Below, piece after piece: positions 14,018-31,587 of a stretch of 64,000 nt of DNA. Source of the stretch: Patellaria atrata CBS 101060 (lineage: Eukaryota > Ascomycota > Dothideomycetes > Patellariales > Patellariaceae); the NCBI GenBank assembly GCA_010093705.1, contig MU006099.1:782757-846756 (forward strand), in the 5' to 3' direction. Within the stretch, counting starts at the first letter, position 1, and each line of letters begins with the position of its first letter. A model generated the notes under the pieces. It did no database searches, was not told the DNA's origin, and saw only the letters and a list, made by a program, of their open reading frames with translations. Position numbers and translations under genes: made by a program.

Positions 14018-17000
14018 ATGTCATCAAGGGTGACTCGCTCTGCTGCGAGAGCCTCTGCAGGTACAAATTCAGCGCCGACCCAACTCACGAACGATCCTGT
14101 ACCTGATCCCCCCCCGGTACGATCCTCACGTAAACGTAAAGCTTCTACCCGCGAACCTACTCCTCCAGACCCGTCCCCGGAATCTCCATCGCAACCATCT
14201 CGAAAGGCAACCAAACGTTCAAAGGTGGACAAGCCTGAATCTAGTGTTAGAGCTCCCCCCACCCAACCTCACCCACCTCCGGCCATACGCAGTCGAAAGG
14301 GAAAAGCTGCTGTCACCATGTCAAATGCTGGGTATGGAATTCATAACAGTCGGGAATAACGGAACATGGCTGACATGATTAGACCGTCGTCGGGACCTTC
14401 CGAGGAAACATCGCCGGCCCAAGCAATCGCGTCTTCTTCGACGAGTAAACGCAAGTCAACCCGTAAGAGGAGCAATATCGGTGAGGAAAATAAGAGTATC
14501 GCCGCTCAATCAAACCTTAAGCTTACGTAATATAGACAATGGGCCTTCAACGACCACTCCTACCTCCAGACGTTCGAAGAAGTCTCTTCCCAAACCTGAT
14601 GAAGATTTAGAAATGAACGACGTCGAAGACGAGAAGCACGAGGATTCAACATTGAAGTCCAATGAGGATACATTTCGCCCTCATTCGAGTGACGATAGCG
14701 GCGGAGATGACCAATCCCACAATTACCCTGAAGATGAGGATGACAATCCTTTTGAAAGTAATTTCTTACGACGTGCTACCGGAGCAGGGCTCTCGAGTAC
14801 CTTACGGGCGTTAAGTGGCATGATGTCTGGACAACATTCCAGACTTCGAGGTATACTAGAGAGACTCAAACAGAAAGATGATCCATCAATGCAATTGATC
14901 GCCTTGCAGGATCTTTCAGAGTTGCTCTTAATATCTACGGAAGACAACCTTTCCGGTCAATTCTCCCCCGATCAGTATATCAAAGAGCTTATTACCCTAA
15001 TGCAACCCAATGAGTTTGGAGAAGAGAACCCAGAAATCATGCTTTTAGCCTGTCGATGTATTGCTAACATGATGGAAGCTCTTCCAGCGTCTACAGGTAA
15101 TGTGGTTTATGGTGGAGCTGTACCTGTCCTTTGCCAGAAACTGCGTGAGATTCACTATATTGACCTAGCGGAACAAGCATTGAGCGTAAGTCTTCCACTC
15201 AAAAACTTCCGGCAATATCACTGACAAGCTTTTCAGACACTGGAAAAGATATCGGTCGAGTTTCCAGCGTCGATCGTCCGTGAAGATGGCTTAGAAGCGT
15301 GTCTAACCTACCTAGACTTTTTCGCAACGGGCACCCAGCGCACGGCCGTAACTACTGCAGCAAATTGTTGTCGGAATATACCGGAAGACAATTTCGATGT
15401 TATCAAGCGAGTGATGCCAATCTTGCAAAACGTTCTTAACAATAGTGACCAGAGAGTCCTGGAACAAGGCTGTCTCTGCGTGTGTAGGATTGTGGAGAGC
15501 TTTAAGTATCAGGATAAGAAGCTGGAGGAGCTCATAGAGCCAGAGTTACTTCGTGCCATTCTCCGCCTGCTCCTACCGGGGACCACGAATCTCATTGGAC
15601 CTAACATACACACCCAATTTCTACGTGTGCTTTCCATCACTGCTCGTGCAAGTCCACGTCTTTCCGTGGAGCTCTTCAAGATGAATGTGGTCGATACTCT
15701 GTATCAGATTCTCACTGGGATATCGCCACCATCCGGTACCGATGATATCGCTACGAAGATTGACACTGTAGTCATTATGCAGGCGCTGATTCACCGTCCT
15801 CGTGAGCAGATATTTGAAACTCTGAATGTAATCTGCGAGCTTCTTCCAGACATACCGGAATCTGAGCTTTTATCCCTTCATGGCACTCAGAACTTCAACT
15901 CTCTGAAAGAAGAAAACGTTGCAAGTTCGACTCGGTCGAAGAAATCGCCCAATGATAAGCGGATAGATTCCCTCGAGGAATGTAAAGTCGAGGTTAAGAG
16001 ATTTGCGGTAATTCTTCTCCCTACTCTGACTGATGCTTATTCTAGCACTGTTAATCTCAGCGTGAGACAAAAGGTCTTGAATGCGCAACTCAAGATGCTT
16101 TCGAACTTAGACGTCGAAATTCTAGGGGAAGCCTTACGCTCAGTACCATATGCTTCATATCTCGCATCAATCCTTTCTCAACGGGACCACCACTCGCTTG
16201 TAACATCTGCTTTACAAGCTGCAGAGTTGTTGCTGAAACGCATGGAGCCTATCTACCGATATCAATTCTATCGTGAAGGTGTCATCTCCGAAATATTGAA
16301 ACTTGCTGAAAGGCCATTGGAAGACTTGCCAGAGAGCAAATCTCAAACTGCTACGGCCGATTTCGAAGTATTACCCGTGGAAGCCTCGAAACGCCATGGG
16401 AACCCTTTTGAGGAGCCGACTAATGAGGAGGTTCCAAGTGATATTCACGTTCTAAACTCGAAGATAGGTGATGACGACGGGGAAGACGACGAGGACGGAC
16501 AGGAAGAACATCACGATGATAACTCCGAGTCCAATTCTGATTCAGAGTCCGATCGTAATATACCCATACCTCCACCTATTGCTCACATTGAGGATGTTAT
16601 AACCGAGCAGGCTAAGAAGCTTATTGAGCAGTATGAGTCGAACGGCGATAAAGCACCAAGAGACCGGGCTTCAGCAATCCTTACTGATTTGAAAGCTTTA
16701 GCTCAGGAGCTTAGAGAATATTACCGGGGTAACGGCTCAGGAGAGGGATCAATACTGTTCTCCCGTCTTGCGACATATTTTGATGGTAATGCTCTAGAGA
16801 GCATCACTAGTTACGAGCTTCTAACCTCAAAGGTCGTTGAAGTTCTGTTGGAAATATTCTCTGGGCCTGATGATGAGGTGTCAGCTGAAGCCCGTGCCGC
16901 TTTTCTCGAAGCGTTTATGGGTTCCAGATTACGCTCTAGTCAGAAGACAAACTCCTCGGCTACTCTGTTCAGTGTCCTGGTTCACAAGCTCCAAGATCTC

Positions 17001-19862
17001 TTAAGCCGCGCGGAGCACTTTGAGGTCATCACAGTCCATCAAAATACTTTTGATAGCAACCGGAGCAGTGCAGCCTCTATGCTTGCGAAACAAATTCGAC
17101 TAAAGTTAGTCGCTGATGAAGACTCGGGAATTCCAAGAGGATATAGAAATATTATGGTTTCTATCCACGCAATTGCAACGTTCAAGGCCCTTGACGATTA
17201 CCTCCGACCTCGTATCAGTCTAGCAGAACGTCCCCGCGGAGCCAGAGATCGCGGCGGCATGTCTGACGCCATTGCCGCCTATGCTGCTGCTCTGAGGGAA
17301 CGCGGAGTGTTCGATGGCAGAAGTTCTTCTGCAGGATCCCCAGCTGCTTTGCCATCCGATACTACTAACCGGCCAAATAAGCGGACCGCGAAATCGAAAC
17401 CACCCAATTCATCAGTCCCAACATCCTCCTTACAAGTTGCTTCCGGTTCTGTCCCTGAGAGATCCCCAGCTGTTCGTCGGTCGTCCAGGCGACATCAATC
17501 AAATTCGCAAGCACCGCCACCACCACCACCTCCTCCTCCCCCGCTACCCGATACTCTCGAGGCTGAAAATATGGGGGAACAGCTAGAGTGCGCGGATGAG
17601 GCTCAGCTTTCAGATGAAGATGACATGGATGATGACAGTGCTCTTGACGCCCTAGTGGATGATCTGGAGAACGAATTGGATGAGGAAATTCCAGACCCGT
17701 CTGCCGTGAGCGTTGAAGTTGCCTCCACTGGTAGAGTCACTGCACGAAAGGAGGATGGGACTCGAGTAGCTACGCCCCTTCAGGGTGCCAGTGCAAGTTC
17801 CTCCCACTTGTCACCAGCAGAACGTTTCGCCGCCATGGCTCGACAGAGCTTCGCCCAACAAGCTCTGGCAAGTCCCACATCGTCTCGGACTATGTCTTAC
17901 GCTGCTGCAGTGCAAGCGATTCCGCAGGATTGGCATATCGAATTTGAAGTTAACGGCGAAAGTATATCCAACGAGACCACAATCTATCGTGTCATTCACT
18001 TCAACCAACATCAGCCGAGCGAAGTTTCTGTTCGGAACATCTGGTCTGTTGTCCATACAATCAAGTTCAAAAAGGTTGCAGGGCCTCCACCAGCAGAGTT
18101 TAGCTCGCTGAGCCCACCTCCTGAGTCGAAATCTCCAACAGTATCTACCTTACCGGTGTCTCTCGACAAGAACCCAACCACATCAGGGATTCTTCGTCTT
18201 CTCAGTATGTTACATGAAATGAACGCGAATATTGACGATGTCCTTTCCGACAAGAAAGAGGCCCAAGGATTCACGACGGAACCAGTCTCACAATTCGTCA
18301 ATACCAAACTGACCGCGAAACTCAACCGTCAATTGGAGGAGCCACTCATTGTGGCTAGCAATTGCCTTCCTAGCTGGAGTGAAGATCTTGCACGCCTCTA
18401 TCCTTTTCTCTTTCCCTTTGAGACTAGGCATCTGTTTCTGCAGTCTACTTCGTTTGGTTACTCGCGCTCAATGACAAGATGGCAAAATGCACAGTCAAGC
18501 AGTGACGCCCGACATGATCGCCACCGTGATGATAGGCCTTTCTTAGGACGCCTCCAACGCCAGAAGGTTCGGATTTCTCGTAGCAGAATATTGGAATCTG
18601 CCATCAAGGTCATGGAGCTCTATGGGTCTTCCCCAAGCATTCTCGAGGTAGAGTACTTTGAAGAAGTAGGCACAGGTCTAGGCCCCACCCTTGAATTCTA
18701 CTCTACAGTATCAAAAGAGTTTTCGAAAAAGAAGATCAAGCTCTGGCGGGAGCATGAGTCTAATGTAAAGGACGAATTCGCTTTCGGAACACAGGGCTTG
18801 TTTCCTGCGCCAATGAGTGAGGAACTTGCTAATAGTGAAAATGGGAAACGGGTCCTTCACCTATTCAAGATGCTTGGGAAATTTGTGGCTCGCTCCATGC
18901 TTGATTCGAGGATTATTGATATCTCATTCAATTCGACATTCTTCCGGATCGGCGACGCCTCGGTTGCAGTAGCCCCTTCCCTTGGAGCCGTTAAGGGAGT
19001 TGATGCTGGACTTGCGAAGTCTCTTAAACTCCTTAAGAAGTTCGCTAATGCGAAGAAAAAGGTTGATGAAAATCCAAAGCTCAATGCCGCGCAGAAAGTA
19101 CAAGCACTTCAGGAGATTGTGATTGACGGTGCTAGGGTTGAAGATATAGGACTAGATTTCACGCTTCCAGGGTATTCCTCCATCGAAATGATCCCTAACG
19201 GCCGCGACGTAGATGTTACGATTGACAATGTCACTTTATACGTGGAAAAGGTCTTAGATTATACGCTCGGTCAAGGTGTACAGCGCCAAATTGATGCCTT
19301 CCGCGCTGGATTCTCCCTGGTCTTCCCGTATTCCGCCCTGAAAGCGTTCACGCCAGATGAACTAGTTATGTTATTCGGTAGGGTGGAGGAAGATTGGTCT
19401 CTTGAGAGTAAGTGAAAACATATCTAACGTAAGAAGAGACTAACCAATCATCATCAACAGCTCTTATGGACTCGGTCAAAGCCGACCATGGCTACAATCT
19501 CGACAGCAAGAGCGTTCGCAACCTCTTGCAAGCCATGTCCGAACTGAACCCTTCTCAACGCCGAGACTTCCTTCAGTTCGTTACAGGTAGCCCTAAGCTT
19601 CCTATCGGAGGTAAACAGCCCTTCCTTGAAGAGACCTCACTTCGACCTTTACTAACGGCTTTTAGGCTTCAAAGCTCTTACTCCGATGTTTACTGTGGTT
19701 TGCAAACCATCCGAACCACCATATACGTCTGATGACTATCTTCCCAGCGTCATGACCTGTGTCAACTATCTCAAAATGCCGGATTACAGCACCATGGAAA
19801 TACTAAGGGAGAGATTGAATGTTGCGATCAGGGAAGGTCAAGGGGCCTTTCACCTGTCTTGA
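14018..19862 (+). CDS. UFD4: HECT-type E3 ubiquitin ligase, UFD4/TRIP12 family
   Basis: Six exons by frame: 14018-14331, 14383-14480, 14536-15185, 15237-19407, 19461-19610 and 19666-19862; 1859 aa, introns 51-55 nt. The first ~220 residues are Ser/Pro/Lys-rich and basic. An armadillo-like helical region follows (roughly 230-550), with [16 protein letters not shown] and later [14 protein letters not shown]. Acidic linkers and a poly-proline run come before the C-terminal HECT domain, recognised from [20 protein letters not shown] and [14 protein letters not shown]. The catalytic Cys is in [18 protein letters not shown] (about residue 1826), some 33 residues from the end as usual for HECT ligases. 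Yeast Ufd4 adds ubiquitin chains in the ubiquitin-fusion-degradation pathway and with Ubr1; the same role is inferred here. The main exon is over 4 kb, and the C-terminal lobe is split by two short introns. Confidence 0.94.
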
Positions 19863-20502: not shown

Positions 20503-22146
20503 TCACTTCTTCGAAATACCAATGACGACAAGCTCGCCCCTGCCGACTTCAACCTTCCAGCCCTCATTGAGTAACATCTTCGTAACCGCTGGGCCTACCT
20601 TCGCCACTCCACCTTCACTATGCTTGCCCACGCCCGTCACGATCCTATATCCCTCTTCCATACCTAAGACTACCCTTTCTCTTCCGTTCCTCCCTACCTT
20701 CTTTTCTCCTAAGCCGGCCCACCAAGCTGCCACTTTCTCGCTTGTAATTCGCAAGGCATCTTTCACGGTAACACCGTGCAGATCCAGCTTTGTGGCCGAC
20801 GACTGAGTGGCTACTAATGCATCGGCATCGGCGGCCGTAGCATTTGAGAGAGCAGAGGAGAAATCGCGAGCTACTTGGCTATAGTAAGCGGCAGCACCAC
20901 CCATGTGATTGGAAGAGTTCGCCTTCCGGTATGAAGCCTGGGCTTGAGAGAAAGCGTATGCACGAGCAGTACTGAGGGTAGTTGAGTTCCCGATATAGGA
21001 TTGCGCTGCAAATGCTTGAGTTGAGGGCGTAGGCGGAGGAGTGGGGTTGAGGTCAATAGGGGCATAGCGGGGTATGACCTCGATGCCGCCCTTTTCTTTG
21101 GAGTGGATTGGACTTGCCAAAATCTTAGCAAGCTCATGTGCGCTTGCTGTGGATGGGTGGGTGAGCCGGATAAGGGCCAAGATTTCGGGAAAGTCTACTG
21201 AGGGGAAGTCTTTAGCCAAATCCGCGGCGTTCTGAAGTATTACTGAGTCCTCTAAGACGAAGGGATCAGTATCCTTTATGTTTCGCTCTATGATTGTTGA
21301 GATAGTTTTGGGCATAGAGGCTCCATTATGATGGTACACCGATGAAATTAGGGTACGGGGAAGTTTGGTCTTGGAAGTGAGGAATGCAATATCCTTTGTA
21401 CTGGTTTGCCAAACACTTTTCGGTACTTCCGGCGACGAGATATGGGCATCATCGCCGGTAGGACCCTGTTTTGCTTTTGATTTCTTGGGCCTTTTCTTCT
21501 TTACTTTCGTAATGTTGTTTACTTCGAAAAAGGCGTCAATCCCTTTCGTAGGCACCATCTCCTTTCCGCTCATGGGTTCATCAGCAAAAGAAGCATGATT
21601 CAATAATTCATCCACCGCTCTGTGAAAGTTTCCGTTACACTTCTTCAAGGTAAATGCGACAAAGGATGGTTTGATCCCCGGAAAAGTTTCACAAAGACTA
21701 GCTTCAGTGCCTCCGCTTTGAGTCTGTAAAACATCATCTAGAGGCTCATTCAGGCAGGTTGAGTCCGACGGCAGTCCTGAAAAGGAGGTAGAGTGCTGAC
21801 CCATACCAACCGACCAGAAACTATTAGAGAGATTTGTCGAGTTAGTGTCTTCAAATTGCGACGCAAACTGGTCAAAATTAGAGCGATCTCTATTGGGCAG
21901 TCCACTACTGCCTGATGCATCAAAATCTGTTTGTTGTTCAAAAACGGCATCAAACTTGAGAGTCTCTAGTAGGGTGCGCGCAACCTCAACACGAGGATCC
22001 ATCGGGTGGTCAAAATCAGAAAAGATGGCACGGACCAAAGTACGGTCGAGCGGGGGGCAGTATGTTTCCTGATATGTTTATCAGCACTTATCTTCGTAGA
22101 AACGAAATAGCCATCTTACCTCTAGCTTTGCGATTAGTTCATCCAT
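20503..22146 (-). CDS. CUE2: CUE-DUF1771-Smr domain protein, Cue2-like ribosome-quality-control nuclease
   Basis: Two exons: 22146-22120 (MDELIAKLE) and 22068-20503, with a 51-nt intron, giving 530 aa. A CUE-like ubiquitin-binding segment lies near 120-170 (ETFPGIKPSF, then CNGNFHRAVDELLNH). A DUF1771 helix (AYYSQVARDFSSA) leads into a C-terminal Smr domain with LDLHGVTVKDAL and the second signature TGVGKHSEGGVAKVGPAV. Yeast Cue2 binds ubiquitin on collided ribosomes and cuts the stalled mRNA with its Smr domain in no-go decay. The DLHG and GxGxHS signatures are present here, so nuclease activity is plausible. The gene is head-to-head with HBS1, another no-go decay factor. Yeast Cue2 has two CUE domains; I see only one clear one. 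A general Smr/CUE fungal protein of other function remains possible. Confidence 0.85.
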
Positions 22147-22577
22147 ATTGGGTATATGAGAGAAGGCGTGGATGGTAAGGTTTTCTGATATTCATGCTCG
22201 TAACGACGGAAAATACAGTGGTAAAATTTTGTTGGTGCATGGAAGTTGCGCGAGTGGAAGAGCCGTAGTCAAATAATGAAGGATAAGTGTAGTGAATGGT
22301 GACGGGTGAAGTAGAACTGAGATCTTCAGCATCCGTCGTAGTTCTAAGAGTTCGGTAATAAGTTCATCCGTCACCGCACTGAGAACATGTACATGTGAAG
22401 GAGGGGCAACTTTACGCGGGGGTATAACCTTCCTGTCATCATATCCTTATAGATACCTTAAACAACACCACAGACACCCTCCCTCCACCTCTGAAGTCTT
22501 TGTCTGATTCCAAGTGAATTGGAAAAGACTTTACCGAAAACACCTCCTCCAAACCAGATAACTGTCTCATCATCACA
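22147..22577. promoter_or_regulatory. Shared divergent promoter region of CUE-Smr gene and HBS1
   Basis: Only 431 bp separate the two start codons, which face away from each other, so both promoters and 5' UTRs must fit in it or overlap. I see no clear TATA box that would favour one side. A CACTCTCC-like pyrimidine-rich stretch precedes the HBS1 start. The assignment as a bidirectional promoter is inferred from geometry alone. Confidence 0.55.
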
Positions 22578-25451
22578 ATGTCAGGTCACCGAAGAGTGAA
22601 AGACATATCATATGATGAGGAGGACTATGACGATTATGATGAAGACGATTACGGTGAGATGGTCGAAGATGACATAGATGATCTCTTAGTTCATGTAATC
22701 AATCTATAATAGCTAATACAACTCCAGATCTGAGCCCTGAAGACCGAGGTATCACCTTCAACCTCAACGTTATTTCCAATGCGCCGATGACTGACATGCC
22801 TTACTCCTAGAACAGATGAGAATTGGTACGATTAAAGTCAAAGAAGCTCTCGGACCTTCCTATAACATACCAAATAAACAAATCGAGGACGCTCTATGGG
22901 ACTCATACTATGACGTAGCCAAAGCGACTACGAATTTGAAAAGTAGGCTCATATCAAGCATGATGGGCGGGCTGATATTGAACGTCAAGCAGGCACGCAT
23001 ACTCCGATTCAATCTAAGAAGCAAAGGCAGGAGTCAAGATTTGACCGAGCTGCCGGCTCAGCAGCTCAGAGTTCGCCAGCGAACAAGAAGAACGGTAGGT
23101 ACTTATTTTCATTGTGAGGTAAAACTTATTTTAAATGCTGTCCTCCTGAATCTTCCTTCTGGGGATATGATCTAAAAGAATATCATGGTGTATATTCTGG
23201 ATATTCTACCTCCCTTTGTCCAAGAATGGTCTGACGTCGGCGATTCCAGAGTCCGCGATCCCCTATCCCTTGCCAATTTCCGCGTCCTGCTGCCACTCAT
23301 TTCTCCATACGGAGAACTTCTTTCAAGATGCTCCTTGGGGTAACATACCTTCGGATCGTTTAGGTGTCCTAGTACCGAATAGTATCCGTCTTCGCTACGG
23401 TCTCTTAGGGGGTTCATCGAAACCTTCTAAGCTTGCCGCCCTTGCTGCAGCTCGGAAGAAGAAAGAAGATGAGAAAAAGGCAGGCACTACCCCATCATCT
23501 TTTAATTCTGGTAACCTTGAAACTGGGAAAAGTATCTTGCTTCTACACAGGTTGGGAAACAAACAGTCCAGCCACAGTAGCCAGCCTTCAACACCTTTAC
23601 CAGATGGCAGCATAACTGGAAAAGAGAATGTTGGAAAATACATAACACCTACCTTACCTAACCGACAGAAGGTAAAACCCACTCCAGCGATTGAGCGTCA
23701 AATACGAGACGTCAGCGATACCGTTGATCACTCAGAGGATACCCCTGCGAGAAATATACCACGGTCAGATTTACGTGCCAATCCTTCAGCGTTTGCTCAT
23801 AGCATGTTCGGGAAATCACTTTCTCAGGCAGTGGGTTCAAATGATCAGGAGGACAGCGCTTTTATGCTACCGTATCTTAGTGATCCGGACTTTGCTAAAT
23901 TAAATGCATTTGCAGGTCCAAGTCCGGATGACGTTGTACTTAACGCACAGGCAAAAGGTTCGATTCGCGCTTAAGCAGCGATACGAACAGGACTAATCCT
24001 CAATAGGCGCAAAAGGAACCAAATCACAATCGAAACAATCTATCGGAAAGGCCACAAAGAGTGCAACTGAAGGTTCTGATTCCTTAAGCGTTCAGGAGCC
24101 GCCAAAAGTCAAAAGCAAGAATTTAAATGTATTAGAGGAGTTCGAGAAATCCAAGTTGAAGAGTTCGGCAAACTTCGTTGTCATCGGTATGGATATTTGT
24201 ATTCGCAGTACTTGCACCATCTAACTGCCCGAATTAGGACATGTTGATCACGGAAAGAGTACGCTGATGGGAAGGCTTCTATATGATTTGAAGGTCGTCG
24301 ACCAAAGATCTGTTGACAAGCTTCGAAAGGAAGCCGAAAATATTGGCAAGCCATCATTCGCGCTTGCTTGGGTAATGGACCAGACGGCCGAGGAACGCTC
24401 AAGAGGTGTTACCGTTGATGTTGCCACCAACACCTTTGAGACGGATAGGGCACGATATACTATTCTAGATGCTCCGGGCCATCAAGACTTTATACCGAAC
24501 ATGATTGCTGGAGCTAGCCAAGCAGATTTTGCAGTGTTAGTTATTGACTCAAGCACAAACAGTTTCGAATCTGGTCTGAGAGGTCAGACCAAGGAGCATG
24601 CCCTACTCGCACGCAGTATAGGCGTGCAACGAATCATCGTCGTCGTAAACAAAATGGATACTATATCATGGTTCGAATCCCGATTTCAAGAAATAGCTCA
24701 ACAAATGTCTGCTTTCCTGTCGTCCGCCGGCTTCTCCCCTAAGAATGTCTCATTCATCCCATGCGCCGGTCTAACCGGCGAGAACGTTGTTCTCCCCGCT
24801 CCATCTACCGCATCATGGTATACCGGCAACACTTTCCTCCAGGAGCTCGACACATGCGAGCACTCTACCTGCCCGCTGGAGCGACCCCTCCGCCTCACCG
24901 TCTCCGATATCTTCCGAGGTGGCATCACGAACCCGCTCTCCATCTCCGGTCGCATCGACGCAGGCTCTCTCCAGGTTGGCGATACAATCCTTTCTATGCC
25001 CGCCAATGAGAACGCAACGATCCGCGCCATTGAGATAGATAGTGAATCGGTTGACTGGGCTGTCGCCGGCCAGATTGCCACTCTCCATCTGGCGGACATC
25101 GACCCAGTGCATCTTAGAGTTGGGGATATTGTATGCACACCCTCTGCTCCTGTAACGAACATCAAGTCCTTCACGGCCAAGATTCTAGCTTTCGATCACG
25201 TGTTGCCGATGCATGTGGATGTATTTCGGGGACGGCTGAATGTGCCGGCTAGGGTTGCGAAGTTGCTTGCCGTGTTGGATAAAGCGACGGGCGAACCGGT
25301 CAAGAAGAAGCCGAGGGTTGTGCAACCGGGACTCGTTGCAAGGGTGGTAGTGGAGTTGGAGAGGGCTATGCCGTTGGAGGTCAGAGAGAGGGTTGTGCTC
25401 AGAACTGAGGGAGCAACGGTTGCAGCTGGACTCGTGGAGGGGTTGGTATAG
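22578..25451 (+). CDS. HBS1: Hbs1-type ribosome-rescue GTPase (eRF3-like, Dom34 partner)
   Basis: Seven exons by frame: 22578-22653, 22728-22748, 22811-22942, 22993-23094, 23250-23957, 24007-24186 and 24238-25451; 810 aa. An acidic N-terminus (YDEEDYDDYDEDDYDLSPED) leads to the HBS1 N-terminal domain (EALGPSYNIP and ALWDSYYDVAKAT). A linker motif, GLLGGSSKPSKLAALAAARK, is typical of Hbs1. The GTPase starts near 405 with VIGHVDHGKS, then DAPGHQDF and NKMD, followed by EF-Tu-like beta-barrel domains to the end. With Dom34, yeast Hbs1 splits stalled ribosomes in no-go and non-stop decay. Exon 2 is only 21 nt and supplies LSPEDR. The intron at 23095-23249 (155 nt) is the least certain junction, and the 23958 intron has a GTTCGA donor. 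The start fixes the conserved acidic leader. Confidence 0.92.
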
Positions 25452-25679: not shown

Positions 25680-27549
25680 CTACACATTACCTAAAGTAAC
25701 CGTACTTGCCTCCAGTACGCCATTCTCATCAATCAAGCCGTCCACAATTTCCTTGCCGGCCGGCTTATCCACTCCCAAAATCATCAAAGCTTCGTTCCTA
25801 TTCTTCCCCTCTCCCTCTCTCTCTAGCGGCGCAACGGACATGAAATTGATATTCACATCCGCTTTTCCAAGCCTCTGTCCGACAAACCCGATCCTACCGC
25901 ATGAGTCGTAGTTCCGGCAGATGAGCAGATTCCCGCTCGGGACAAAGTTCGTCGCAAATCGGTCCAGCCGCGAGATGTACGGCACGTTGCCGGCGACGTA
26001 GCCCTGGATGACTTGCTCGGTCTCGGCTTTGGGGTCGTTGCGGGGCCCGGACCGGGCGTGAGAGGCCGAGCGCGAGGTGCGTGCACGTAGCGTCACGAAG
26101 CTCGTGTACCCCTTTTCTTCGGGTGACTCGCGGGAGCGCTGCTCGTTGACGTAGAGGCCGCGCTCTTTGGCGACGAGCTCGGCGTTGACGATGTTGATGT
26201 TTATCTCGCCCGGAGAGGAGATGGGGGAGAGGAGCCCCTTGATTAGAGCGGCGAATAGGGGCTTGGTGGTGTTGAGCGTTGCGAGGGAGCCTTCGTATGT
26301 GATGTCGAAGGTGTTTCTGGTTTGTTGACCCGTCGATGCGGCACGGGTCGTGTAATGTTGAGTATAGAGGGATCCCATCTTCTCGACGAGGGTGACGAAG
26401 GGTTGAAGCGTGCGGTATTCTTCAGGCAGGATAATGGGCGCGTTGACCGCACTGCGCGGAAGGCTACCGGAGAGAATGAGGATGACTTGCTCGCAAACAT
26501 CGATGGACACGTTTTCTTGGGCTTCGACGGTCGAAGCTCCGAGATGAGGTGTCGCCACGACCTTTGGGTGCGCTATTAGGCGCGAAGCGGAGGAGTCTGG
26601 TTGTGGTGGCTCGGAGGTAAAGACATCGAGGCCAGCGCCGGCGATTTTGTTGGCCACGAGAGCTTCGAGAAGAGCGACTTCGTCAATCATACCTCCCCTG
26701 CTAACGTTGAGTATGCGGGCCGTCGGCTTCATCATTGCAAGCTCAGAAGCCCCAATCATACCCTTGGTGGATGCAATAAGGGGCGTATGTATAGTGAAAA
26801 AGTCTGCGTCTGGGAGAAGCTCGTTCAAGCTTGATTTCAAGGTCACATTTGTAGCTGCCGCAAGCTGTGTATTGGCATAAGGGTCGTAAGCAATGACATT
26901 CATCCCCAAGCCATTAGCAATTCTTGCAACGGTAAGACCAACTGTCACTTTTTGTGAGCTTTGGATCATTGGGGTACGATAATCACGAGCTGAGTACGGT
27001 ACGGACCTTTCCCAAGACCAACGATTGCCAGGGTCTTTCCTTTTGCTTCGACGCCAACCAATCGACTACGCTCCCACTTCCCGTCCTTGATACTTGCGCA
27101 AGCGTCTCCGATGTTACGGGCTACGGCCATCATCACTGAAAGGAATATCAGCACCTAGCGCTTTCAGTACTGTACACGAGGCAGAGATTCGTACAAGCAA
27201 TAGTATGCTCGGCGGCAGCATTGATGTTGCCAACGGGCGAGTTGACCACAATAATGCCGTTCTTTGTGGCGGCCTCTACATCTACATTGTCAACGCCAAC
27301 GCCAGCTCTTGCTACAACCTTGAGCTTCTTCGCTGCTTGGAGGAGTGCTGCTGTCACTTTGGTCTCGGAGCGTACAATGAGAGCCTCGTATTCAGGGATG
27401 ATCTCAAGAAGCTGCTCAGGGGATAGGCCTTTCCGCTCGTGTACCTCGAATGATTTCTGAAGAAGGGCCAGGCCATCGGGTGACACCTTTTCGGGAATCA
27501 ATATCTTGGGTTTGGACTGATCTGGTCCGCTGGATGTAGGAATGGGCAT
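25680..27549 (-). CDS. D-3-phosphoglycerate dehydrogenase
   Basis: Three exons: 27549-27195, 27135-27007 and 26947-25680; both introns are 59 nt; 583 aa. The enzyme oxidises 3-phosphoglycerate with NAD as the first step of serine synthesis in the cytosol. Visible motifs are the substrate-side RSETKVT and ARAGVGVDNVDVEAA, the Rossmann GLGKVTVGLTVARIA formed across intron 2, NVSRGGMIDEVALLEAL, GLDVFTSEPP and the catalytic-His block VATPHLGAST. After the catalytic part come an ASB-like region (ITYEGSLATLN) and a C-terminal ACT-like domain (PLEREGEGKNRNEALMILGV), as in long PGDHs that serine inhibits. Length fits long-type bacterial/fungal enzymes. The second intron donor is GTCCGT, which is unusual, but the joined frame is exact. 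The 5' leader has a 14-bp tandem repeat just upstream of the ATG. Confidence 0.93.
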
Positions 27550-30305: not shown

Positions 30306-31587
30306 ATGGCACCTACAGCATCGAACCCAAACCCACCTCTTCTTCCCGTTGATCAAGGGCCTCGTTTAATCCTATACCATCAGACACATCATGATAGGAA
30401 TGGCAGCTCCATCTCGATTCTACCTCTTGTTCTTAATCCGACTGGAATAACGCATGTCATCATTGCTGCCATACACTTGAACGAAGGCCCTGGGAACATC
30501 ACACTAAACGATGACGTCCCGGACGCGAGAAAATTCGATGCTTTGTGGGGAGAGGTTGCATGGTTGAAGGGTACGGGTGTCAAGGTGATGGGTATGCTGG
30601 GTGGAGCGGCGAAGGGAAGCTTTTGGAGGTTGAGCGGGAGTGAAGAAGAGGTTTGCACGCACTACTCGTACAGTTATCTGAAGCCATCTTTGTGTACTCT
30701 ACTAACATACTGTATGTACCGACTTACAGTTTGAAGCATACTACAGACCGCTGTACGCGCTTATTCACGCTCGCAACCTTGATGGTCTCGATCTCGATAT
30801 TGAGGAGCCAGTCCCGCTGCACACATGCACCCGCCTTCTCACACGATTACGCACCGATTTTGGGCCTTCCTTCATTCTAACTCTTGCTCCAGTTGCCACC
30901 GCTCTTCTTCGACTTCCAGCAAATTACGAGTTACCACCCGCATCAGATGAACTCCCGCCCGTGCTCGTTCCACCTGCCGACACATTCCCTATGTCTTTAC
31001 CACAATTGAGCGGGTTTTCCTACTTCGCACTGGAAGCTTCAGAAGCGGGCAGGTTGGTCAGCTGGTACAACACACAATTCTACTGCGGCTGGGGTGAAGC
31101 GCGAACTACACAATGGTACGACGCTATCATCGCTACTGGCTGGAACCCGAACCGCGTCGTGATGGGTTTGGTTACAAATCCTGGTAATGGAGCTGGATTC
31201 GTGGACACGCCGTTGATGTCTCAAGTCCTCCGATCTCTTCGCTCGAAATATCCTAACTTTGGTGGTATTATGGGCTGGGAACACTTTAATGCTCTGGATG
31301 AAGGGTTTGCGAACGAAATTGGAGCCGATGAAGACGATAAAGGCCCGTGGAGATGGGCAATGCGCCTTGGTCGGGTCCTTCGAACTGAGATCCCAAGTAA
31401 TCCAGATATCACATTCATCGAGCAATTGGTGAGCGGATTACCTCAGCTACCGACGCCGCAGACAAGTTGGCCGCCGGAAGATATTCAGACCCTAATGGAC
31501 TTGGGATTCGACCGCCCGCGCGTCATTGCGGCATTGAATGCTACATCGGGTGCAGTAGATATGGCTGCCAGTCTTTTGTTTGAGTGA
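30306..31587 (+). CDS. GH18 glycoside hydrolase with C-terminal UBA domain
   Basis: Two exons: 30306-30650 and 30730-31587, intron 79 nt with a GTTTGC donor; 400 aa. The GH18 barrel begins near 20 (PRLILYHQTHHD), and the catalytic signature DGLDLDIE (DxxDxDxE) is intact just after the intron (near residue 134). LSGFSYFALEA and a C-terminal barrel strand, GGIMGWEHFNALDEG, fit the fold. No signal peptide or membrane segment is visible, so the protein looks cytosolic. The last ~40 residues form a UBA-like domain (WPPEDIQTLMDLGFDRPRV, then AALNATSGAVDMAASLLFE) that should bind ubiquitin. GH18 enzymes include chitinases and endo-beta-N-acetylglucosaminidases; the substrate cannot be told here. Cytosolic handling of ubiquitinated glycoproteins is a speculation from architecture. 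The frame is open 17 codons upstream of the chosen ATG without another ATG. Confidence 0.88.

Follow-up and report, generated by a model that had tools for sequence, protein, structure and literature searches.

Two neighbouring genes of the ascomycete Patellaria atrata CBS 101060 that point away from each other raise the question of whether they serve one pathway and whether their closeness has any meaning. They lie in a window of 64,000 nucleotides (assembly GCA_010093705.1, contig MU006099.1, positions 782,757 to 846,756 of the forward strand), from whose first letter all positions are counted here. The minus-strand gene encodes a protein with CUE-like, DUF1771-like and C-terminal SMR segments (the CUE-Smr protein), and the plus-strand gene encodes the GTPase HBS1. 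An earlier note, made from the letters alone, had described them as a cutter and a rescuer in no-go decay that might share a promoter. Our analysis suggests, at a probability of about 0.62, that the pair combines a gene for a ubiquitin-binding SMR nuclease of the Cue2/SppC type with a single, alternatively spliced SKI7/HBS1 gene, both of them conserved ascomycete genes acting in no-go decay.

The gene models and their coordinates confirmed the arrangement described in the earlier note: the two genes diverge head to head, and their start codons are 431 bp apart, with positions 22147-22577 between them. This spacing lies below the 1000 bp taken as the limit for a divergent pair with a bidirectional promoter.

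The plus-strand gene can be identified firmly as HBS1 from its domain content, and here the earlier note was borne out by the HBS1_N and GTP_EFTU profiles and by matches to Hbs1 structures. The best PDB matches of the GTPase region were 5lzw (Hbs1l, E=2.5e-106), 3mca (E=1e-93) and 3p26 (E=4.6e-84), the last two of which we take to be the Hbs1 proteins of Schizosaccharomyces pombe and Saccharomyces cerevisiae, respectively. The protein joins an HBS1 N-terminal domain to an HBS1-type GTPase that retains the catalytic histidine in G3 (DAPGH), a residue that is altered in post-duplication Ski7 proteins (PMC3597508). Its P-loop, GHVDHGKS, has a histidine where the aligned Hbs1 chains show alanine (5lzw, 3p26) or serine (3mca), and is interrupted by the 51-bp last intron (24187-24237). 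The N-terminal domain of mouse HBS1L/SKI7 binds ubiquitin and carries a hallmark VLGD/E (PMC13232801). In P. atrata this hallmark reads ALGP (within 22811-22942, plus strand), and a hand count makes the next loop longer by about two residues; ubiquitin binding by this domain is therefore not to be assumed, and it may have been lost, as described for S. cerevisiae.

The same gene looks like a dual gene from which SKI7 and HBS1 are predicted to arise by alternative splicing, a feature that the earlier note had missed, and it should thus also supply an exosome adaptor. Exon 5 has two predicted starts that use the common donor at 23095 and keep the frame: 23250, with a CTGAC branch-like site and CAG, which gives a long form of 810 residues, and 23916, in the context TTTGCAG/G, which gives a short form of 588 residues. 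The distal site was selected for its position and its CAG/G context, and the intron that follows exon 5 (23958-24006) was a manual choice among 10 open combinations. The segment that would be specific to the long form contains a SKI7-like motif, and a Patch-4-like motif directly follows the distal site. Each pattern matched once in the six frames of the window, the SKI7-like one as ANPSAFA at 23777-23797, both patterns having been made after the motifs had been seen. A PDB search with the SKI7-specific segment returned no Ski7 chain, only two unrelated rows (E 0.17 and 0.36).

This layout has published counterparts. In Aspergillus nidulans, Lachancea kluyveri and Saitoella complicata, alternative 3' splice sites were found just upstream of motif S3 by reverse transcription polymerase chain reaction (Marshall et al., PMC3597508), and in L. 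kluyveri the long form does the work of Ski7 and the short form that of Hbs1 (PMC3597508). The P. atrata gene resembles the SKI7/HBS1 genes of A. nidulans and L. kluyveri in its HBS1 N-terminal domain, its one donor with predicted proximal and distal 3' sites, and the position of the distal one shortly before the S3/Patch-4-like motif, but six introns are predicted here, as against four in A. nidulans. A first guess that placed the distal site near 23409 was dropped because Marshall et al. (PMC3597508) put the alternative intron just upstream of S3.

The minus-strand gene is read as encoding a CUE-Smr protein of the Cue2/SppC type, probably one that cuts mRNA. Both Smr motifs, LDxH and TGxG (PMC3200294), occur in its C-terminal part, as LDLHG at 437 and TGVGKHS at 487. 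When the C-terminal 101 residues were compared with the PDB by phmmer, the best matches were three entries for the SMR domain of N4BP2 (E=3.2e-6 to 2.3e-5), and a 524-residue query also found N4BP2 SMR entries (E=4.5e-4 to 1.5e-3). The best of these alignments is limited to the TGxG half (about residues 479-515), and the LDLHG half was assigned by motif. D438 and H440 fit the positions of D348 and H350 in yeast Cue2, the no-go nuclease (PMC6598757), whose cleavage is abolished when both residues are mutated (PMC6598757). The CUE-like segment was modelled as three helices with block pLDDT (predicted local distance difference test) values of 82-88 in a single-sequence AlphaFold prediction of residues 125-345 that was poor as a whole (mean pLDDT 47.8). 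Of the FP and LL residues by which CUE domains contact ubiquitin, the segment shows TFP at 137-139 and LL at 164-165. For this model a CUE domain headed the Foldseek list, in which no hit was significant (best E 1.1; of 37 rows at E<=10, none reached E<=0.001), and a PDB sequence search with residues 145-180 (36 residues, the TFP end not covered) returned a single unrelated row (E=0.4). For the DUF1771-SMR part, single-sequence modelling gave an unusable result (mean pLDDT 37.2), and an NCBIfam search of the CUE-Smr protein gave one spurious row (E=0.16). The earlier call of a CUE-DUF1771-Smr protein was thus right in kind, given the N4BP2 SMR match and the SppC layout, and weak in its Pfam profile support.

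Compared by layout rather than by sequence alignment, the protein is like S. cerevisiae Cue2 (and N4BP2 and NONU-1) in having a CUE-like segment, a C-terminal SMR domain with LDxH and TGxGxHS, and the aspartate and histidine at the cleavage positions. Unlike Cue2, it has a single recognizable CUE, about 130 residues ahead of it, a DUF1771-like segment and weak profile scores. A tryptophan, W229 (KSVWQ at 226), lies between the CUE and the next helical region, roughly at the unaligned place of W122 in yeast Cue2, which is required for cleavage inside collided ribosomes (PMC9841427).

A closer relative in layout is SppC of Aspergillus oryzae, a protein of 556 residues in which 142 residues precede a CUE domain at 143-185, with DUF1771 and SMR domains besides (PMC10023807). 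The P. atrata protein, judged by this published layout alone, has 530 residues, about 130-140 of which lie ahead of a CUE-like segment with LL and a changed MFP, and DUF1771-like and SMR parts as well. OrthoFinder, applied to 81 fungal species, put yeast orthologs in the same clade as SppC, and Cue2 was named as the budding-yeast ortholog (PMC10023807). This orthology, together with the layout match, supports the Cue2 assignment of the CUE-Smr protein. The presence of a CUE varies among SppC orthologs (PMC10023807), so the single CUE marks a difference between yeast Cue2 and the SppC type and does not exclude orthology.

If the pair acts as proposed, collided ribosomes would be recognized through their ubiquitin by the CUE module of the nuclease, and the mRNA would be cut by its SMR domain, as we infer from yeast. 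The short HBS1 form, with Dom34, would release the ribosome left behind where the mRNA was cut, and the long SKI7 form would, going by the splicing literature, bridge the Ski complex and the exosome, the latter removing the 5' fragment. The N-terminal part of the nuclease probably also serves at septal pores in filamentous ascomycetes.

Several observations weigh against this proposal. Profile searches placed the CUE at 12 bits (Pfam cut-off 21.1, E=0.18) and DUF1771 at 11.6 bits (cut-off 28.7, E=0.37), and Pfam Smr gave no match at E<=1, which marks the nuclease as divergent; where yeast Cue2 has two N-terminal CUE domains, one CUE-like segment was detected here. In the alignment to N4BP2, rather than to the Cue2 SMR domain, R402 of yeast Cue2 has two candidate counterparts: K499, which aligns with the arginine in GGVARIK, and Val489, which replaces the arginine of TGRG. 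As R402K had no discernible effect in the yeast experiments described (PMC6598757), K499 would be harmless, whereas Val489 might not be; a literature search in which subscription journals were mostly missing found no paper on the conserved arginine of the Smr-domain endonuclease N4BP2. On the side of SKI7/HBS1, alternative splicing is a prediction from the DNA. The scanned stretch lists 19 in-phase AG sites, 23250 and 23916 among them, the upstream bases searched at 23916 hold no CTNAY branch-like match, and the equation of the motifs with S1-S3 of PMC3597508 is presumptive. Lastly, the function reported for SppC is wound-induced septal-pore plugging (PMC10023807), and no-go decay is not demonstrated for the SppC subfamily in the passages concerned.

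Table 1 Features of the divergent gene pair, with window positions.
Feature	Position	Strand	Details
CUE-Smr (Cue2/SppC-type) gene, exon 1	22120..22146	-	27 nt, MDELIAKLE, ATG at 22146
CUE-Smr gene, intron	22069..22119	-	51 bp, GTAAG...CAG
CUE-Smr gene, exon 2 including stop	20503..22068	-	whole protein 530 residues
CUE-like domain, about residues 134-170	21586..21696	-	sub-threshold PF02845 (residues 138-166), three predicted helices, TFP 137-139, LL 164-165
DUF1771-like segment, residues 376-429	20809..20970	-	sub-threshold PF08590
SMR domain, about residues 437-530	20506..20787	-	D438 and H440 (LDLHG), TGVGKHS from 487, K499; phmmer match to N4BP2 SMR
Divergent intergenic region, candidate bidirectional promoter	22147..22577	.	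431 bp; function inferred from position only
SKI7/HBS1 gene	22578..25451	+	seven predicted exons; long form 810 residues, short form 588 residues
SKI7/HBS1 predicted exons	22578-22653, 22728-22748, 22811-22942, 22993-23094, 23250 (or 23916)-23957, 24007-24186, 24238-25451	+	predicted splice sites
HBS1 N-terminal (UBA-like) domain, exons 1-4 and their introns	22578..23094	+	PF08938 E=5.4e-21; PDB 3mca E=5.8e-5
Alternative segment predicted to be SKI7-specific, from the proximal to the distal 3' splice site	23250..23915	+	splice-site prediction
SKI7-like motif	23774..23806	+	RANPSAFAHSM; fits 6/10 positions of metazoan consensus A+PShFAahL (PMC6143672)
Patch-4-like motif	23918..23950	+	PSPDDVVLNAQ; directly after distal site, close to Patch-4-like consensus (PMC6143672)
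HBS1 GTPase region and following domains	24186..25451	+	GTP_EFTU E=1.4e-49; P-loop GHVDHGKS split by last intron

Whether the adjacency has meaning is a separate matter. There is about an even chance that it reflects coincidence or neutral inheritance, two housekeeping genes of a compact genome having come to diverge without functional coupling. In keeping with this, strand alternates over four successive genes (14379-19415 plus, CUE-Smr minus, HBS1 plus, 25680 onward minus), the pair was, in our judgement, chosen post hoc out of many possible pathway pairs, and the 431 bp are unremarkable. Their best feature is an inverted repeat in the middle of the region, GGTGACGGGTGAA / TTCATCCGTCACC (22298-22310 / 22363-22375), 13 nt long with 12 of 13 positions complementary; a repeat as good was obtained in 22 of 500 shuffles and in 8 of 148 real tiles of 431 bp, which is near chance. 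The repeat motif, allowing up to two mismatches, matched four times in the window (2.49 expected), a number that 25 of 100 shuffles reached. Since shuffles and tiles do as well, the repeat was rejected as a symmetric pair of binding sites and is not used as evidence. What speaks against coincidence comes from published work. In fungi, gene pairs are most conserved when 100-1000 nt apart, and at short spacing it is the divergent ones whose conservation is strongest; conserved divergent pairs tend toward functional relatedness, and divergent gaps average 1343 bp (PMC2871058). The two proteins are also linked in no-go schemes, and a 2026 paper places N4BP2/NONU-1/Cue2, HBS1L-PELO and SKI7 in one of them (PMC13232801). 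The earlier claim that cutter and rescuer act in the same pathway accordingly finds support in the gene identities and in published yeast and no-go schemes (PMC6598757, PMC13232801), and fell short in missing the predicted SKI7 coding and the septal role of SppC. With SKI7 counted in, cutter, rescuer and exosome adaptor, three activities of a single pathway, could be combined in the pair.

The pathway links (PMC6598757, PMC13232801), the divergent spacing and the predicted dual coding would also suit a functional module in which a shared promoter keeps the Cue2-type cutter, the HBS1 rescuer and the SKI7 exosome adaptor in step, a possibility that we regard as doubtful. Both core promoters most likely lie within the 431-bp gap, but it contains no significant shared element or anything else notable, and co-expression and conservation are conjectural. 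The shared promoter and the matched dosage suggested in the earlier note therefore went unsupported, distance being their sole basis, and co-regulation is speculation. Deletion of CUE2 did not demonstrably change reporter levels in wild-type yeast in the experiments described (PMC6598757), so that no clear need for strictly matched dosage can be seen. The pair, seen here in one genome, resembles conserved divergent fungal pairs such as RAD7/RAD16 in its head-to-head order, its short gap and its possible functional relation. Neither HBS1 nor a CUE/Smr protein is named in Table 1 of PMC2871058, several rows of which read "uncharacterized", and HBS1 is absent from the main text. A search of viral contigs for related loci found no relative of the HBS1 GTPase (3 pattern stretches) or of the CUE-Smr protein (30 stretches). 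Among genome contigs, 22 stretches led to one relative, a bacterial one (Robinsoniella peoriensis, 27% identity) that is useless for fungal gene order. No paper on Cue2 and HBS1 as a divergent pair with a bidirectional promoter was found in a search from which subscription journals were mostly missing, and by title none of the matches listed for HBS1/CUE2 gene order dealt with the present pair.

It is less probable still that in this lineage the CUE-Smr protein works mainly as a septal-pore factor, with an SMR domain that has lost its importance in no-go decay and an HBS1 neighbour of no relevance. Residues 1-185 of A. oryzae SppC, which lack the SMR domain, gather at the pore and restore plugging in full in the deletion strain, residues 143-556 fail to do so, and the N-terminal region is described as Pezizomycotina-specific (PMC10023807). 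The SMR domain is thus dispensable for septal plugging, and the one found here is too divergent for Pfam and has valine at the TGRG position. Yet LDLHG and TGxGxHS are kept, which suggests continued selection, and septal work that is independent of the SMR domain is compatible with a second role. Far less credible than any of these is a conserved module of filamentous ascomycetes that ties the clearance of ribosome collisions to the sealing of septal pores, the CUE-Smr protein reporting wound- or stress-induced stalling at septa and a shared promoter keeping it in step with SKI7/HBS1. A full-text literature search in which subscription journals were mostly missing found no paper joining "septal pore" with "no-go decay".

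The surrounding genes include a further ubiquitin-related one. A HECT ubiquitin ligase of the TRIP12/UFD4 type (14379-19415, plus strand; PF25579 E=2.9e-25, PF00632 E=2.4e-32) is convergent with the CUE-Smr gene. On the other side, a gene for D-3-phosphoglycerate dehydrogenase (25680-27549, minus strand; 2-Hacid_dh_C E=8.5e-42 and PGDH_inter E=2.8e-17 within 25683-27065), whose upstream open reading frame reaching 27549 was assigned by eye, is convergent with SKI7/HBS1, the stops being about 230 bp apart. Farther along, an open reading frame at 30706-31587 on the plus strand combines a C-terminal UBA domain match (PF00627 E=6.2e-9) with a preceding stretch that appears chitinase-like by eye, an odd combination.

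Should the gene pair prove not to be conserved, it would be an ordinary neighbourhood; its conservation, on the other hand, would be a hint that in fungi the three steps of no-go decay, cutting, rescuing and degrading, are coordinated at the level of transcription. The locus also brings together two literatures, one on Cue2 as a no-go nuclease and the other on SppC as a septal-pore protein. In the SppC paper, Cue2 is cited for its binding of ubiquitin, and "ribosome" does not appear in the main text (PMC10023807). The locus so raises the questions of whether SppC may cut mRNA at collided ribosomes and whether ribosome stalling may influence the sealing of septa.

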